Source: Candidatus Gastranaerophilales bacterium (lineage in GTDB: Bacteria > Cyanobacteriota > Vampirovibrionia > Gastranaerophilales > Gastranaerophilaceae). Taken from it: a DNA stretch of 32,456 bases. A model generated the notes under the pieces. It did no database searches, was not told where the DNA came from, and saw only the letters and a list, made by a program, of their open reading frames with translations. Location: positions 1 to 32,456 of the forward strand of contig CALVCA010000016.1 of the NCBI GenBank assembly GCA_944325895.1, read 5' to 3'. Below are positions 1,966 through 32,456 of the stretch, piece after piece; positions within the stretch are counted from its first letter, which is position 1; each line of letters begins with the position of its first letter. A program made the position numbers and the translations under genes.

Positions 1966-2160
1966 TTAAAGAAAAAATTAAAAAATGCCGATAACGGGAA
2001 TAAGTGTGAATAGAAAGGAGAAAACATGGTAGATAAAATTCCTGAAAATAACCTAAATCGGGTAGATTTTACTAAAAAGAAATCAGACACTCCGCAAACA
2101 GACTCTACGCCGACAGTACCAATGGTCGGTGAAACAAAACCTGATTTGGATAAAGGTGTT
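1966..2160 (+). repeat. Promoter/N-terminus repeat, copy 1 (inverted partner at 6667-6861)
   Basis: The upstream region, ribosome binding site and first 45 codons of the gene at 2026 match, in inverted orientation, those of the gene starting at 6801. Inside the coding part I see one mismatch (codon 20, TCA versus TTA). Upstream, identity declines gradually from the Shine-Dalgarno outward. The near-perfect match implies recent duplication or gene conversion. Confidence 0.9.
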
Positions 2161-3348
2161 TCTGTACAAAAAGCTGAACCGTTCCCCGATGCTGCATATG
2201 AAGCCTGGGGTATAAATAATTTATCAGAAGAAGAAATAGCAGCCAGAAAAGAAGCCGCAAAACAACAGCAAGGCGAATTAAAAGAACCGCAATCGGTGTT
2301 AGAAAAATCACGTAATAACTTCATATATAATATAAAAGAAAGTAATTTCTCTAAATATGTGGCGAATTTATTATATAATGTAGTTGGTATAGCTGCTCAA
2401 ACATACGCTGCTATTGTTACAGCCCCAGTTTCTTTATCAAGCTGTTCTAATGATTTAAACGAACCCGTTGTAGATACAGGTGCAGAAGTTACGGTTGAAA
2501 TCAATATAGATGAAGAAATAATAGACCAGCTTGATAAAACTGCTCCTGATGGCGGATATAAAACAAAAGATGGCATCAAATACGAATATAAATATGATTA
2601 TTATGAAAATAAACCATATGTTGAATTTGAAAACAATTTTACACACTATATAGGTGAAAGAACAGATGTAGATCCAAATAGTGCGACAGCAGCATTAAGA
2701 AATGTTTTTGAACAAATAGGTATAGATGTTCCAAAAAAAAGTACAATCGTTTTAACGGATGTTTCTACTCAAAACGGGTCTAATTCAGGTAAAGCAGGTC
2801 TTTCGATGAGTATTGCACGTGGCAATGGATGGCCTGCTGACCTGAAGGAGATTGCCGAAGGAAAACCATGTATTAATTTTGGAGTCGGCGATTTACAAGT
2901 TCGAGGTGATCTTGAAAAAGTTGAGAATCCTGGCGTGTATAATTTAATATCTAACGGAAAAGATGGTGTAAGCCAGGCCGGCGGGCTTTATATTAAATCC
3001 GATGACGGTCGTGAAATATACATGCAATATGAAACAGGATTTTATACAGGGCCTACTGATCCGCACAGCGATTCACCCAATGATACAAAGGACTGTTTAG
3101 TAGTTTACATAAAAGGAAGTGACAAGAAATTTAAAGAAGCTTATGCATTAACCGTTAACCCGAATGATACTACAAACATCATGATTGGACAAATTAATCG
3201 AGAAAGAGGTACAACTTTTGAATTTTATGATAAAAATGAAGTAGGAACATTTAATGCTGATGTAACGGCTATTGATGATTTATATAATAATACAAAACTC
3301 AAAATTACAGTCGATGCAGATGCCACAACAGATATAACAATCAAATAA
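2026..3348 (+). CDS. Orphan exported-looking protein with internal lipobox-like cysteine (440 aa)
   Basis: I do not recognise the family. ATG 2026 follows AAAGGAG at good spacing. Residues 1-45 are a charged, Pro/Thr-rich segment shared almost exactly with the protein at 6328-6801. Residues about 61-90 are charged and helical. A hydrophobic stretch (about 112-136) ends in LSSC with Cys140, which fits a lipoprotein signal placed unusually deep in the chain. The remaining 300 residues are soluble, rich in Asp, Asn and Tyr, with many short beta-like stretches such as VTVEINIDEEI, suggesting an extracytoplasmic beta-rich domain. If Cys140 is lipidated, the first 139 residues would be an extended signal; this is inference. 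The gene is monocistronic, with a terminator directly after it. Confidence 0.75.
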   Translation: MVDKIPENNLNRVDFTKKKSDTPQTDSTPTVPMVGETKPDLDKGVSVQKAEPFPDAAYEAWGINNLSEEEIAARKEAAKQQQGELKEPQSVLEKSRNNFIYNIKESNFSKYVANLLYNVVGIAAQTYAAIVTAPVSLSSCSNDLNEPVVDTGAEVTVEINIDEEIIDQLDKTAPDGGYKTKDGIKYEYKYDYYENKPYVEFENNFTHYIGERTDVDPNSATAALRNVFEQIGIDVPKKSTIVLTDVSTQNGSNSGKAGLSMSIARGNGWPADLKEIAEGKPCINFGVGDLQVRGDLEKVENPGVYNLISNGKDGVSQAGGLYIKSDDGREIYMQYETGFYTGPTDPHSDSPNDTKDCLVVYIKGSDKKFKEAYALTVNPNDTTNIMIGQINRERGTTFEFYDKNEVGTFNADVTAIDDLYNNTKLKITVDADATTDITIK

Positions 3349-6327: not shown

Positions 6328-6801
6328 CTATTCTTCTTTCGGCACATCCGGCATAGGAGGCTGAACGTCCGTAGGAAAACCGTCTGTCTGAGGCGATGCA
6401 TCCGGTACCGGAGGCGAATAATCCGGCGGCATATCCTTTAATTCATCTTTAATACATCCGGTCATTAACCCCATAATAAGTGCTCCGGCTCCGCCAACAA
6501 TTGCACCGGCGACAGTACCGGCTCCGGGAATAATACTGCCTGCAACAGCTCCGACAGCTGCACCGCCGCCAACCAAACCGGCTAAACTGCCTAATTGTTT
6601 TGCTATTGTCTTATTACCTGACGGTTTAGCTTCATTTTTTACATCTTGTTTTTGCTTTTCGACTACAACACCTTTATCCAAATCAGGTTTTGTTTCACCG
6701 ACCATTGGTACTGTCGGCGTAGAGTCTGTTTGCGGAGTGTCTAATTTCTTTTTAGTAAAATCTACCCGATTTAGGTTATTTTCAGGAATTTTATCTACCA
6801 T
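6328..6801 (-). CDS. Orphan protein with glycine-zipper segment and internal lipobox-like cysteine (157 aa)
   Basis: Residues 1-45 are the same N-terminal segment as in the protein at 2026, with one difference (L20 for S20). A Gly/Ala-rich hydrophobic region (about 70-112, with repeats such as AAVGAVAGSIIPGAGTVAG) resembles a glycine-zipper membrane segment. It ends in MTGC at Cys116, which fits a lipobox. The last 40 residues are Pro- and Asp-rich and probably unstructured. ATG 6801 follows AAAGGAG. The function is unknown. The shared leader plus a different C-terminal half suggests modular reuse of one N-terminal cassette. Confidence 0.75.
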   Translation of the reverse strand: MVDKIPENNLNRVDFTKKKLDTPQTDSTPTVPMVGETKPDLDKGVVVEKQKQDVKNEAKPSGNKTIAKQLGSLAGLVGGGAAVGAVAGSIIPGAGTVAGAIVGGAGALIMGLMTGCIKDELKDMPPDYSPPVPDASPQTDGFPTDVQPPMPDVPKEE

Positions 6802-11971: not shown

Positions 11972-12928
11972 ATGGATTTAAGAGAAAAACTTTATCAAAT
12001 GTTCATCTTAGGAACTGACGGCGGAGGATATAAAACCGCATTACAAAACAACTTAGGCGGCATTATATTTTTTACGCACGATATAAAATCCTCAGAGCAA
12101 TTCAAATCATTAATCAAAGAATGTAAATTATTAGCAAAAACCCCGCCTTTTTTATCAATCGATCAAGAAGGAGGAAGAGTTGAAAGAACAGAAAATATTC
12201 ACAAAAAATATCTATCTGCAAAATACGCTTACGAAAAAGGATTGGAATTTTTAGAGCGGCAATCGAATGAAATAGCAAAAGAATTAAAAGATTACGGCAT
12301 AAACCTTAATTTTGCTCCGTGTGTTGACGTAAATACAAACCCGAATAACCCTATAATCGGCGAAAGAGCATTTTCTTCAAAACCTGATGAAGTTATAGAA
12401 GCTGAAAAAATCGTTGTTGCTGCATTTCTAAAAAACGGTATAATACCATGCCTCAAACATTTCCCCGGACACGGAGATGCAAATGCCGATAGCCATCTTA
12501 CATTACCTGAAATAAATTTATCGCTTGAAGAAATGGAAAAAACTCATATAAAACCTTTTAGTTTAAACAATGTCGAAATGATTATGGCAGCACATCTTCA
12601 TTGCACATGTTTTGACAAAGAAAAAATCCCTGCGAGTTTAAGTAAAAATGCAATTTCTTATTTGAGAAATAAACTGAGCTTTAACGGAATAATAATTTCA
12701 GATGATATGATAATGAAAGGAGTTGCGGAATATGGGGCTGCAAATGCCATTGAAACGGGTATCCTTGCAGGTTTAAATATGTTTATTTACAGGAATTCAA
12801 ATTCCGAAACAATTGACGCAATTGAACTTGTCGCCCAAAAGGCTCAAAATGACAAACCTCTTTCCCAAAATATCGAAAAGTCCTTTGAAAAAATTATTAA
12901 TTTAAAATCAAAATTCCTAAATATTTAA
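11972..12928 (+). CDS. nagZ: Beta-N-acetylhexosaminidase, glycoside hydrolase family 3
   Basis: NagZ removes N-acetylglucosamine from muropeptides during cell-wall recycling. The 318-residue single-domain protein has GGIIFFTHD, DQEGGRVER, the family motif KHFPGHGDANADSH (His and Asp for catalysis) and the nucleophile region IISDDMIMKG. There is no signal peptide, consistent with cytoplasmic recycling. It is divergent from pgeF, with a TACAAT box near 11944. Its stop codon overlaps the prepilin gene's stop by four bases (ttaa). Confidence 0.93.
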   Translation: MDLREKLYQMFILGTDGGGYKTALQNNLGGIIFFTHDIKSSEQFKSLIKECKLLAKTPPFLSIDQEGGRVERTENIHKKYLSAKYAYEKGLEFLERQSNEIAKELKDYGINLNFAPCVDVNTNPNNPIIGERAFSSKPDEVIEAEKIVVAAFLKNGIIPCLKHFPGHGDANADSHLTLPEINLSLEEMEKTHIKPFSLNNVEMIMAAHLHCTCFDKEKIPASLSKNAISYLRNKLSFNGIIISDDMIMKGVAEYGAANAIETGILAGLNMFIYRNSNSETIDAIELVAQKAQNDKPLSQNIEKSFEKIINLKSKFLNI

Positions 12929-14113
12929 AACCACGGATAATCCTCTTTAATCTGCCAGCCATCCATATAGATAAGACGACCGCAGGTTGATGCACCATCA
13001 TCGGTTGAACATGCATTAAGATAATAAGTTCTACTATAGCCTGAAGACGTATTGCCAAATGTATATTGATACATTTGAAAAACTTTTTCCCTAAGATTAA
13101 ACATCATATAAAAAATATCTTTGCCTTTAGTATTTGGTTTTTGAAACCCATTTATATCAACCCAAAAAATTACATGTGTATATCTGATATCAGTACAATT
13201 ATCATTCTCATCGTATGCATAACAATGAGTACCTAATCCTATATTTACCAATACATTATTAGATAACAAGACTAAATATTCTTTAACTTGCGAAATTTTT
13301 CTATTTGAAGCCGGGGCATACGGACCATCATATCCTAAACTGCTTAATGAAGCATATCCGTAATCTTTGGCAACTTTTATGTATGGTATAAAATATGTTT
13401 GTGCAAACGTTGTAATAACGTCCTCTCTATTAAAATTTTCATCCTCAGTATTAGTACCTGTAATGCCGGCAACTTTCCAAGTTGTAGTATCACCATGTTC
13501 AGTCTGTGCCATGGTTAAAGCCTGTGAGATTATTGAATACGTCTGCTTTAATTTTGACAACGTTTGCTTCTTTTGATAGTTATTTATTAAAGTCGGAATA
13601 GTCATTGCCGCAACAATTCCTATAATCCCGAGGGTGATAAGAACCTCAGCTAAAGTGAAGGCGGCACGACGATTATTGTCAAACGTACCTACGTGCGTAG
13701 CACCTTCGCTCCGCTCAGGATGACGGGTAGAAGGCAAACCTGATGTGTTTACGTACTTAGTACTGTCATCCTGAACTTGTTTCAGGATCTTACCAGTGTT
13801 GAATGGTATGCAATCGTGCGGCTTAAAGATTTTTTTAAAAGATTCTTTGCTTTGCTCAGGATGACAGGTTGTATGGAATAAGTTCGTTAATAGGTTATTT
13901 TGGTGTAATACATTAACAACTTTATTAAAAATACCGCTCTTTATCTTCTTATTACTTAAACTATAATTCATTATATTAAAATTATAGTTTAATTTTAATA
14001 CATAGTCAATCGGGGTAAAAAACAATCTTAAAAACGCTTTTAAACACTTTATTCCTGAAAAATCAATTCCGGCTAAGCTTTGAGCAAGTCGCCCCCCCCC
14101 CTATCTTTTTCAT
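12925..14113 (-). CDS. Prepilin-like protein 1 with long leader; poly-G tract puts it OFF
   Basis: The mature part begins at AAFTLAEVLITLGIIGIVAA, a type IV pilin/pseudopilin N-terminus with the prepilin-peptidase site and Glu5. The C-terminal part has VDINGFQKPNTKGKDIF, like the calcium loop of GspG-type pseudopilins, and several Cys. The only well-placed start is ATG 14113, with AAGGAGG six bases upstream and an extended -10 at 14134-14139. It is followed by AAA AAG ATA and a run of ten G (14092-14101). As written, this frame ends after 16 codons (TGA at 14063-14065). With nine G it runs uninterrupted through about 150 leader residues into the prepilin. The unshifted frame has no ATG with a ribosome site near FTLAEV. 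The leader contains palindromic repeats read in frame. Confidence 0.75.
13690..13868 (-). repeat. Palindromic repeat cluster inside the prepilin 1 leader
   Basis: Three related elements: 13690-13725 (translates HPERSEGATHV on the minus strand), 13764-13790 (gtcatcctgaacttgtttca, read as ILKQVQDD), and 13827-13868 (read as CHPEQSKESFKK). These belong to the widely scattered gtcatYctgagc/gcttcaggatgac repeat type. All keep the reading frame open. Confidence 0.8.
14092..14101 (-). repeat. G10 homopolymer tract in the prepilin 1 leader
   Basis: Ten consecutive G on the coding strand, four codons after the ATG. The flank AAGATA-G(n)-CGAC matches, with the tract inverted, AAGATA-GTCGCC(n) of the leaders at 24354 and 32350. 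Runs this long are rare in a low-GC genome and are prone to slippage during replication. Confidence 0.85.
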
Positions 14114-23090: not shown

Positions 23091-24317
23091 ATGAAAACTC
23101 TAAAATCAATGAGATTACATATTGGAATATTTGGCGGGACAAACGTCGGAAAATCATCTATTTTAAACAGAATTGCAAATCAAGACATTTCAATAGTTTC
23201 TGATATTGCCGGTACAACTACTGACGTTGTCGAAAAATCAATGGAACTTTTGCCTGTAGGCCCTGTAACTTTTTTAGACACAGCGGGGGTTAATGATAAA
23301 ACCGACTTGGCAGGCAAACGGATTGAAAAAACAGTAAAAATTCTTAACCGTACAGATATTGCTGTTATTGTATGCGACTACAACGGAATTGATAAAGAAG
23401 AAAAAGATTTAATAAAAAAGTTAACAGAGCTAAAAATTCCATACTTTGTTGTGATAAATAAAAATGATGAACAAAAAATTTCTCAATCCGAATATGAAAA
23501 AATTATAAATTTCACGGGCGGCAATATTAAAATCATTATAACTTCAGCTAAAAATGATAAAGAATTGGTATTTAAATTTAAAGAAACATTGATAAAACTT
23601 TTACCTGAAGATTATATAAATCCGCCTAAAATTGTCGGTGATTTAATTCCTGAAAAAAGCACGGTAATTTTGGTTGTACCTATTGATAAAGAAGCTCCGA
23701 AAGGAAGGCTTATACTGCCGCAGGTACAAACAATAAGAGATTTACTTGATAATAATTGCATAGTAAATGTTTTAAAAGAAACCGAGCTTAAAGAAGCTTT
23801 AAACAATTTGAATAAGAAACCTGATTTAGTAATAACAGACTCACAAGCATTCAAAAAAGTTGCCGAAATTGTACCGCAGGATATACCTTTAACTTCTTTT
23901 TCCATTTTATTTGCGAGATTAAAAGGTGACATAAAAGAATTTGTAAACGGTGCAAATGCAATTGAAAGATTAAGGGACGGTGACAAAATTCTAATACTTG
24001 AAAGCTGTACACATCACGCAATAGAAGATGATATAGGCAGAGTAAAAATTCCGAATCTTTTAAAACAAAAAACCGGAAAAAATTTGATTATAGAAAATTA
24101 TGCAGGTCATGATTTCCCGAACATCGAAAAATACAGCTTAATAATCCACTGCGGGGCATGTATGACAAACCGACGTGAAGTTTTATCAAGAATTTTGACA
24201 GCCAATAATTTAAAAATTCCTATAACAAACTATGGCATAGCAATATCATACTGTTTAGGGATCTTACCGAGAGCAATTGAAATATTTAAAGATATACTAA
24301 ATCTTGACAAAATTTGA
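23091..24317 (+). CDS. hydF: [FeFe]-hydrogenase maturation GTPase HydF
   Basis: HydF is the scaffold on which HydE and HydG assemble the 2Fe subcluster before transfer to HydA. The 408-residue protein has an N-terminal GTPase (GGTNVGKSS at about 15-23, DIAGTTTD, DTAGV, NKND). Its C-terminal Fe-S ligands fit the family pattern C-x-H...H-C-x-x-C: C306-T-H308 in ESCTHH and H353-C354-G-A-C357. The presence of hydF predicts HydE, HydG and an [FeFe] hydrogenase elsewhere in the genome, hence a fermentative anaerobe. It lies two bases after mnmE, so the two are probably co-transcribed. The promoter of the next leader overlaps its last codons. Confidence 0.95.
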   Translation: MKTLKSMRLHIGIFGGTNVGKSSILNRIANQDISIVSDIAGTTTDVVEKSMELLPVGPVTFLDTAGVNDKTDLAGKRIEKTVKILNRTDIAVIVCDYNGIDKEEKDLIKKLTELKIPYFVVINKNDEQKISQSEYEKIINFTGGNIKIIITSAKNDKELVFKFKETLIKLLPEDYINPPKIVGDLIPEKSTVILVVPIDKEAPKGRLILPQVQTIRDLLDNNCIVNVLKETELKEALNNLNKKPDLVITDSQAFKKVAEIVPQDIPLTSFSILFARLKGDIKEFVNGANAIERLRDGDKILILESCTHHAIEDDIGRVKIPNLLKQKTGKNLIIENYAGHDFPNIEKYSLIIHCGACMTNRREVLSRILTANNLKIPITNYGIAISYCLGILPRAIEIFKDILNLDKI

Positions 24318-24332
24318 GAAATAATATTTAAT
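24304..24332 (+). promoter_or_regulatory. Promoter of the prepilin 2 leader
   Basis: TTGACA (24304-24309) and TTTAAT (24327-24332) at 17-base spacing, overlapping the end of hydF. The same pair with the same spacing precedes the leader at 32350. Confidence 0.6.
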
Positions 24333-24353
24333 TAAGAAAAAAGGAGTTAAGAG

Positions 24354-25537
24354 ATGAAAACTATTGAAATAAAAGCGGGTAAGATAGTCGCCCTCCCCCT
24401 GCAACGTGCTTAATTAGAACCTTTCGGGCTGTTTTTGGAAGTTTATTCCACGCTGCTCGTCATTCTGAGCGGAGCGGAGGTGCTACGCACGTAGACATAT
24501 TAGATTTTGCATTGTCTTCTACACGTCATTCTGAGCGGAGCGAAGAATCTTTTAATGAGATTCTTCGGGCTAAAGCCCTCAGAATGACGAATACAAATAT
24601 AACTACTTGTAAAGCGGCACACCATAACCACTTATTAACGAACTTATTACCTCATTCACTTATTCCCTCATTCCCTTCCACCCGTCATTCTGAGCGTAGC
24701 GGTGCTACGCACGTAGACACATTAGATTTTGCATTGTCTTCTACACGTCATTCTGAGCGTAGCGAAGAATCTCTTAATGAGATCCTTCGGCTGAAGCCTC
24801 AGGATGACGTATACCACCCAACCCCCAGAACATTTGACAAAAATCGTCGTGCCGCCTTCACACTCGCCGAGGTTCTTATCACCCTCGGAATTATCGGGGT
24901 CGTTGCCGCTTTGACTATTCCGACCGTTATTTCAAAAATTCAAAATATGGTGTATAAAACTGCATACAAAACCGCTTTCAGTGATTTAAATCAGGCATTT
25001 AAAATGCTTACCTATGAAGGAACTCAATTCCAAAAAATTGTTTATTTGAAAGATGAAAATGGTAACCCAAGACCCGGATATGCTCCTGCTTACGGTGAAA
25101 ATTTTAAGATTTTGGCACAATATTTTAAAGCTACTAAAACTTGTTTTGATCATAAACGTGGAGATTTATGCTGGAAATGTAAAGGCGGTGAACAGGCAAA
25201 TACAACATATACAGATAGCGAATGGAAAGGTACAAGAGAATGTACCGGAAACGCATATTCATTTGTTGATGCTCAAGGCAGAAATTGGGCAATGTATTCT
25301 AATAATGAACCGGTGTTTTTAGTAGATACAAACGGTTTTAAAGGCCCTAATCAACTCGGTAAAGACAGATTTCCATTTGCAATGGCTGCCAACAGTGAAA
25401 ACGAAAATTTTAATTCAAATGCTGCCCCTGACCACGTTGTTCCCGGCTCAAAAACCGATTACACCAATAAAGAACGCTGGTGTCCTTCCGGTGAATGCTA
25501 TTATATTTCATGGTTATTTGGAAGAAGCAGGTATTAA
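24354..25537 (+). CDS. Prepilin-like protein 2 with long leader; C-rich tract puts it OFF
   Basis: The mature part begins AAFTLAEVLITLGIIGVVAA, a pilin/pseudopilin N-terminus, and later has VDTNGFKGPNQLGKDRFPF, resembling the GspG calcium loop, plus several Cys. The only ATG with a good ribosome site (AAGGAG, seven bases) is 24354: MKTIEIKAGKIVA, then a C-rich tract (24391-24399, CCCTCCCCC). As written, it stops at TAA 24411. One added C joins it to the stop-free frame that runs from 24398 through all the leader repeats into the prepilin. Without this, the first possible start is a TTG at 24512 with no ribosome site. The nucleotides for FDxNRRAAFTLAEVLITLG nearly match those of prepilin 1, whereas the C-terminal parts differ. 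Confidence 0.75.
24391..24399 (+). repeat. C-rich tract in the prepilin 2 leader
   Basis: CCCTCCCCC directly after GTCG. It aligns with C9 in the copy at 32387-32395. The single T makes it less slippery than an uninterrupted run, so this copy may be partly locked. Confidence 0.7.
24458..24809 (+). repeat. Tandem palindromic repeat units in the prepilin 2 leader
   Basis: Two copies of a unit of about 130 bp (24458-24589 and 24683-24809). Each contains a cgtcattctgag half-site, a shared gctacgcacgtagaca segment, and a long hairpin (24524-24589 with 12-bp perfect terminal arms; 24746-24809 with one mismatch). They translate in the prepilin frame as RHSERS...ATHV and RHSERSEES and keep it open. 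The gctacgcacgtag part also occurs, on the other strand, in the prepilin 1 leader. Confidence 0.85.
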
Positions 25538-32299: not shown

Positions 32300-32328
32300 T
32301 TGACAAATTATGTGAAATAATATTTAAT
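32300..32328 (+). promoter_or_regulatory. Promoter of the right-edge leader
   Basis: TTGACA (32300-32305) and TTTAAT (32323-32328) at 17-base spacing, just after the cysE stop; same arrangement as at 24304-24332. Confidence 0.6.
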
Positions 32329-32349
32329 TAAAGAAAAAGGAGTTAAGAT

Positions 32350-32456
32350 ATGAAAACAATTGAAATAAAAGCGGGTAAGATAGTCGCCCCCCCCCTGAAA
32401 TTAACGTAGCTGAACGCTTTCCGGCATTTTTTAAGTTTATTGACTTCTTTTTTATT
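32350..32456 (+). CDS. Start of a third poly-C leader, probably of another prepilin (cut by the window edge)
   Basis: AAGGAG then ATG 32350 encodes MKTIEIKAGKIVA, almost identical in DNA to the prepilin 2 leader over about 90 bases including its promoter. A run of nine C follows (32387-32395). As written, the frame ends at TAG 32407. With ten C it would stay open to the edge as PPPEINVAERFPAFFKFIDF, whose ERFPAFFKFIDFF part resembles TFRAVFGSLFH of prepilin 2 and CLKAFLRLFF of prepilin 1 in their joined frames. With eight C it stops at once. No prepilin core is visible before the window ends, so the downstream gene is inferred. Confidence 0.55.
32387..32395 (+). repeat. C9 homopolymer tract in the right-edge leader
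   Basis: Nine consecutive C after GTCG, at the same place as CCCTCCCCC in the prepilin 2 leader and, inverted, the G10 run of the prepilin 1 leader. Confidence 0.8.

Follow-up and report, generated by a model that had tools for sequence, protein, structure and literature searches.

A dispersed family of type IV prepilin genes led by C or G tracts in a Gastranaerophilales genome, with tract orientation tied to the replication strand

Results and discussion

The feature at the right edge of the window (the whole stretch of 32,456 nucleotides analysed here, which is the complete contig C16 of a 1.69-Mb MAG that is 99.8% complete) is very probably the 5' end of a type IV prepilin gene switched by its tract, one of about 40 such genes in this genome, with slippage in vivo being inferred. 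The family is far larger than the earlier note on this DNA had assumed: it has a poly-G half, members in related species and genera, and a rule that ties tract orientation to the chromosome strand. The anatomy of these genes, their copy number, the relation between tract and frame, the variable tract lengths, the ON members and the strand rule are direct observations. Slippage in vivo, protein production, pilus function and the expression of a random subset are inferences, with no reads, strains or expression data behind them.

A nine-C leader at the edge of the window

The edge copy occupies positions 32300-32456 of the plus strand. It begins with a sigma-70-like promoter (32300-32328), with TTGACA at 32300 and TTTAAT at 32323-32328 separated by 17 nt. 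This element was read by eye and is kept in most leader copies; it was absent from the output of a consensus promoter scan and is therefore a reading rather than a test. A ribosome binding site, AAGGAG (32337-32342), recognised from the sequence and from the other leader copies, lies 7 nt before the ATG at 32350. Twelve codons separate the ATG from the tract, and these leader codons (MKTIEIKAGKIV, 32350-32386) end in the conserved motif GCGGxTxAGATAGTCG, here GCGGGTAAGATAGTCG. The tract itself is C9 (32387-32395). Translated with nine C, the gene yields MKTIEIKAGKIVAPPLKLT and stops after 19 codons at the TAG at 32407-32409, whereas ten C give MKTIEIKAGKIVAPPPEINVAERFPAFFKFIDFFFI, with no stop in the spacer, of type A (32396-32456), before the contig ends. 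Versions with C8 or C11 stop immediately. Translation and the frame table of the family both assign the consensus C9 to the OFF state and ten C to the ON state. The leader is identical to that at 24303-24400 at 89 of 98 positions. The near-identical leader, the early stop with nine C and the frame opened by ten C had all been described in the earlier note, and all were recovered here. Runs of at least eight C or G gave five matches in the window, belonging to two tracts, against 0.09 expected per shuffled window; counted as C alone, there are two runs of at least eight, and shuffles give almost none.

The last 41-43 bases of the window are found again on two other contigs, at the start of C39 and the end of C7, and neither of these contig ends has a leader. 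Continued through either contig, the ten-C frame reads NNRRAA-FTLAEVLITLGIIG and comes to a prepilin core (FTLAEV) at codon 150 or 153, while the nine-C frame stops at codon 20 through the same joins. The true neighbour of the window remains undecided between the two, and the core assigned to the edge copy is thus seen only by sequence overlap. A third prepilin beyond the edge, as had been predicted, is supported to that extent, its switching being inferred; neither of the outcomes that would have refuted it, namely the lack of a core in any frame or immediate stops in the ten-C frame, was encountered.

Two further prepilin loci lie within the window. Prepilin 2 (24303-25537, plus strand; ATG at 24354) has the same leader, an interrupted tract (CCCTCCCCC, 24391-24399), a repeat-rich spacer and an N_methyl core at about 24857, and one added base opens a 394-aa ORF. 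Prepilin 1 (12925-14113, minus strand; ATG at 14113) has a G10 tract (14101-14092) and is OFF; one G fewer gives a 395-aa prepilin ORF. The description of both as poly-C loci needs correcting, given the interruption in the former and the G10 in the sense strand of the latter. Likewise, the residues after the edge tract had been said to resemble those of both loci, which holds for prepilin 1, with its related ...FFxPxxYxxxxNYN... stretch, but not for prepilin 2, whose spacer is of a different type.

Imperfect palindromic repeats (GTCATTCTGAGCG...CTCAGGATGAC, read as RHSERSEESLNEILRLKPQDD) were observed at 24440-24820 of the window and in the spacers of most tract-led prepilins. They are inserted in frame between tract and core in varying number, and may be compared with the Rickettsia palindromic elements found in genes.

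A prepilin family dispersed in the genome

The leader has 28 matches in this genome, a few of which are fragments, and nearly all those with enough sequence lead to an FTLAEV core in the frame opened by one extra base, in keeping with the dispersed gene family suggested earlier. We counted 63 prepilin cores, about 28 with poly-C leaders and about 10 with poly-G leaders (about 40 tract-led in total); some of the 63 are conventional, with MKKTGFTLAEV and no tract. Family members meet the type IV prepilin criteria (F at +1, E at +5 and a small residue before the F, as in A-FTLAEV). PF07963 (N_methyl) was detected in all four mature bodies scanned, with no other Pfam domain, and the genome encodes four T2SSE-family ATPases and one prepilin peptidase. 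Nearly all copies have a ribosome binding site and an ATG, and most share the same promoter-like stretch. A layout of the pilE/pilS type, with one expression locus and promoterless silent cassettes, was not seen in this genome, and neither leader type was found on viral contigs.

At the poly-C loci of this and related species, translation in the assembled frame meets a stop at about 17-21 codons; adding one C yields an ORF of about 200-420 aa that runs through the core. Although poly-C copies differ by hundreds of bases in the length between tract and core, they keep this frame relation. One locus (L005/L037) is ON through a compensating base. The poly-G copies of this genome are mostly G10 and OFF, and one G9 copy is ON. 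Three tracts in this genome are interrupted (CCCTCCCCC twice and CCCCTCCCC), and their +1 ORFs are open to the limit of the sequence.

Some individual loci depart from this pattern. Partial duplicates of the core start (NRRAAFTLAEGATHV) precede the real core at L015 (contig C15) and L164 (contig C7), which suggests repeated recombination at the border between spacer and core. A 542-aa N_methyl protein at C1:11388 (L212:9790-11415, minus strand) has a G10 tract, is ON as assembled, and is followed by many NTAIGxxAL repeats resembling those of fibres or adhesins. Three similar prepilins (C4:6774, C4:19675 and C10:27351) have a G9 some 220 bases before a conventional MTKRFGFTLAEV start, with a flank unlike that of the main motif (on C4, G9TATACTTCC at both loci). 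These three tracts are possibly vestigial switches.

Tract lengths and reading frames in related genomes

The 97-bp leader is present in most genomes of the genus. The strict motif ATAGTCGCCCCNCC was found in 9 out of 16 genomes, and, in a sample of 41 genera of the family, G8C(A/G)AC(C/T) was present in 11. After deduplication, we retained 150 tract-led prepilins from this and related genomes, with tract lengths of 7-13 and both ON and OFF members. In 128 the consensus tract leaves the frame off by one base (OFF), and 22 are ON, fewer than the one third expected by chance (binomial P about 2e-7). The OFF excess is clear in genus g1; outside g1, 6 out of 26 are ON, and the deviation is not significant (P=0.19).

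The offset is not uniform. The poly-C loci and most poly-G loci of g1 need one base more, while the poly-G loci of the window's own genome and those of G028, from another genus, need one fewer (mostly so in G028, where tracts are G11-13). Most poly-G loci of related species have G9 and are OFF, and most G10 members there are ON. In-frame C7, C10, G9 and G10 members exist, and C9 is strikingly uniform across species. Two criteria of simple-sequence contingency genes are met: a 5' tract whose length sets the frame, and length differences accompanied by ON and OFF homologues. In spacer type A, synonymous changes were not in excess in the ON frame (3 synonymous and 28 non-synonymous variant codons), and the amino acids of the spacer gave no evidence of purifying selection.

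The G-run follows the replication strand

In this and related genomes, contig tables place the G-run of the motif G8CG(A/T)C on one strand per contig. Contigs with several tracts are uniform (12/12 in G010 C1, 11/11 in G012 C4, 13/13 in G002 C1, 8/8 in G028 C1 and 6/6 in G028 C3), and our own count from the tables gives about 164 neighbouring pairs that agree in strand and 5 that disagree. The sign of the GC skew, corrected for gene strand, matched the strand of the G-run in nearly all contig blocks of seven genomes. We call the G-rich strand leading, following the usual convention; origins were not mapped. On contig C4 of the window's genome, the skew and the orientation of the tracts reverse together in the stretch from 25 to 92 kb (the skew near 50-60 kb), and in G021, from another genus, the single change of tract strand coincides with a change of skew sign. 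The skew of contig C7 in the window's genome was at first unreadable, with too few plus-strand genes, and agreed once more sequence was added. Exceptions were a weak skew of the wrong sign beside a flip (G012 C1, 135-155 kb) and a skew near zero (G008 C30, 98-118 kb).

Genes on the leading strand thus carry poly-G and those on the lagging strand, including the copy at 32300, carry poly-C, with the same AGTCGC9 motif. In a tree of the prepilin bodies the two labels intermingle, changing 7 times against 6.9 in shuffles, which indicates that the tract base follows gene direction; ancestry was rejected as its cause. Most branches of this tree are weak, and one clade with 100/99 support holds both kinds. 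A mild GC skew alone was also rejected as the cause of the rule: by our own estimate, a skew near 0.05 would give a preference of about 2.5 to 1 for nine bases, against the near-total bias seen. A subfamily with CTCA-G-CA(G/A) in G002 and G008 (L214, L243-L246, L323 and L328) is fixed on the opposite replication strand, with tracts mostly longer than those of the main motif (G11-12, and two G8). The strand-dependent mutability of G tracts has been noted in general by a review (PMC10710837). We found no report of a replication-strand rule for contingency tracts in the literature, which is weak evidence.

Proposed replication slippage and its alternatives

In the model that we favour, each gene would comprise a promoter, ribosome binding site, ATG, about 12 leader codons, C9, an in-frame spacer with little conservation, and the prepilin core. 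With C9, translation would end after 19 codons, and a replication slip to C10 would restore the full prepilin. Since each copy has its own start region and its own tract, mostly set to OFF, the pilins made by any one cell may be a small subset, random and changing. The tract would act at the DNA level during replication, through one AGTCGC9 motif whose G-run lies on the leading strand whichever way the gene is read. What stays constant across genes of opposite direction is a DNA motif and a replication strand, not an RNA or a peptide, and this points to replication slippage. A fuller version is only tentatively offered, and we doubt that it holds in every part: a mutational switch tuned to the replication strand, with G on the leading strand and mostly longer G11-12 in the lagging subfamily, with each gene resting at an OFF length a single slip away from ON, where selection or orientation-specific spreading keeps dozens of dispersed prepilin genes oriented and the cell displays a small random subset of pilins. 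Several observations speak against this model: the uniformity of C9 across species exceeds that expected of freely drifting tracts; the three interrupted tracts are hardly capable of slipping, yet their +1 ORFs are open; spacer type A lacks a synonymous excess in the ON frame; and the excess of OFF loci is not significant outside g1. Loss of mismatch repair as a cause of instability is unsupported, the genome having two MutS-family genes.

The uniformity of C9 and G9, together with consensus tracts almost always exactly one base short in g1 and a zero-frame stop close behind the tract, would also suit programmed recoding, in which the tract is held at nine and a -1 ribosomal shift on the C or G run, or slippage of RNA polymerase, yields a fixed full-length share from every copy. 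We consider this improbable. The required shift is +1 in some sets and -1 in others, so homologous sites do not share a direction; these opposite offsets and the varying lengths, in-frame C7, C10, G9 and G10 members among them, argue against a programmed ribosomal shift and for replication slippage. Moreover, C in one transcript and G in another is unlike slippery signals, the shared feature being the replication strand. The case against slippage in transcription is weaker than that against a ribosomal shift. The tract might instead serve chiefly as a recombination hot spot that shuffles prepilin cassettes, with a secondary effect on frame; the guanine-rich element upstream of pilE in Neisseria offers a comparison. 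At the tract the conserved leader gives way to a mosaic spacer, one and the same tract motif follows different 5' ends, poly-C and poly-G bodies mix on the tree, and the motif is locked to one strand, a property that polar recombination signals can also have. Nevertheless, this remains unlikely: no array of promoterless cassettes was seen, most copies having a promoter and ribosome binding site, nearly every copy preserves the frame, although a site serving recombination alone would not require it, and nine G are, by our reasoning, too few for an intramolecular quadruplex.

We give very little weight to the idea that the short ORF serves as a leader peptide or attenuator and that the prepilin starts at an internal codon, leaving tract length irrelevant. 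In some bodies an ATG does stand in frame nine codons ahead of the core (MFDKNRRAA-FTLAEV), and a match to TTGACT-17-TATAAT lies in type A spacers, but that ATG is missing in many copies and has no proper ribosome binding site, L081-like loci have no ATG, GTG or TTG from tract to core, and spacers of very different length all keep the core in frame with the leader ATG once one base is added. An artefact of homopolymer assembly or sequencing can hardly account for the family, since motif, length and frame relation are alike in many MAGs from different projects and assemblers, even though contigs break at these repeats and a MAG consensus tract length may hide variants.

Relation to known phase-variable systems

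The Opa family of Neisseria, which comprises about 11 phase-variable loci (PMC3745409) with a tract of the pentamer repeat CTTCT (PMC5953494), offers a parallel, being likewise a set of dispersed genes for surface proteins in which every gene has a slippage tract near its start that sets the frame. However, Opa combines a pentamer with an outer-membrane protein, whereas the family described here combines C or G mononucleotides with prepilins in about 40 copies, with the base tied to the replication strand. Phase-variable poly-G genes of Neisseria such as pilC, with 9-20 G (PMC5953494), share the principle of a G or C homopolymer in the coding region, which in pilC switches a pilus-associated protein. 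Unlike the present family, pilC has one or two loci and encodes a pilus-associated adhesin, not a prepilin; no strand rule for these genes was found in the literature searched. The pilE/pilS system resembles ours in its many prepilin variants per genome and nearby G-rich element, and tracts have been noted in some pilS copies (PMC5953494), but there one expression locus is fed by recombination from silent cassettes, whereas here nearly every copy has its own leader.

Our literature search retrieved no account of phase variation or tract-led prepilins in Gastranaerophilales, itself only weak evidence. If the proposed switching is real, an uncultured gut lineage related to Cyanobacteria would be among the more heavily phase-variable bacteria known. 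Annotation misses this large repertoire of potentially switchable pilins because the consensus of almost every copy is frameshifted. The strand rule also makes an old question testable, namely whether a homopolymer's orientation to the replication fork determines how often and in which direction it slips, and whether evolution exploits this.

Other features of the window

An Rfam scan of the window returned only a tmRNA gene (RF00023, 1422-1812, minus strand), and no riboswitch or attenuator family. Two ORFs, at 2026-3348 (plus strand) and 6328-6801 (minus strand), share a near-identical N-terminus of about 45 aa (MVDKIPENNLNRVDFTKKK...) and differ in their C-termini.
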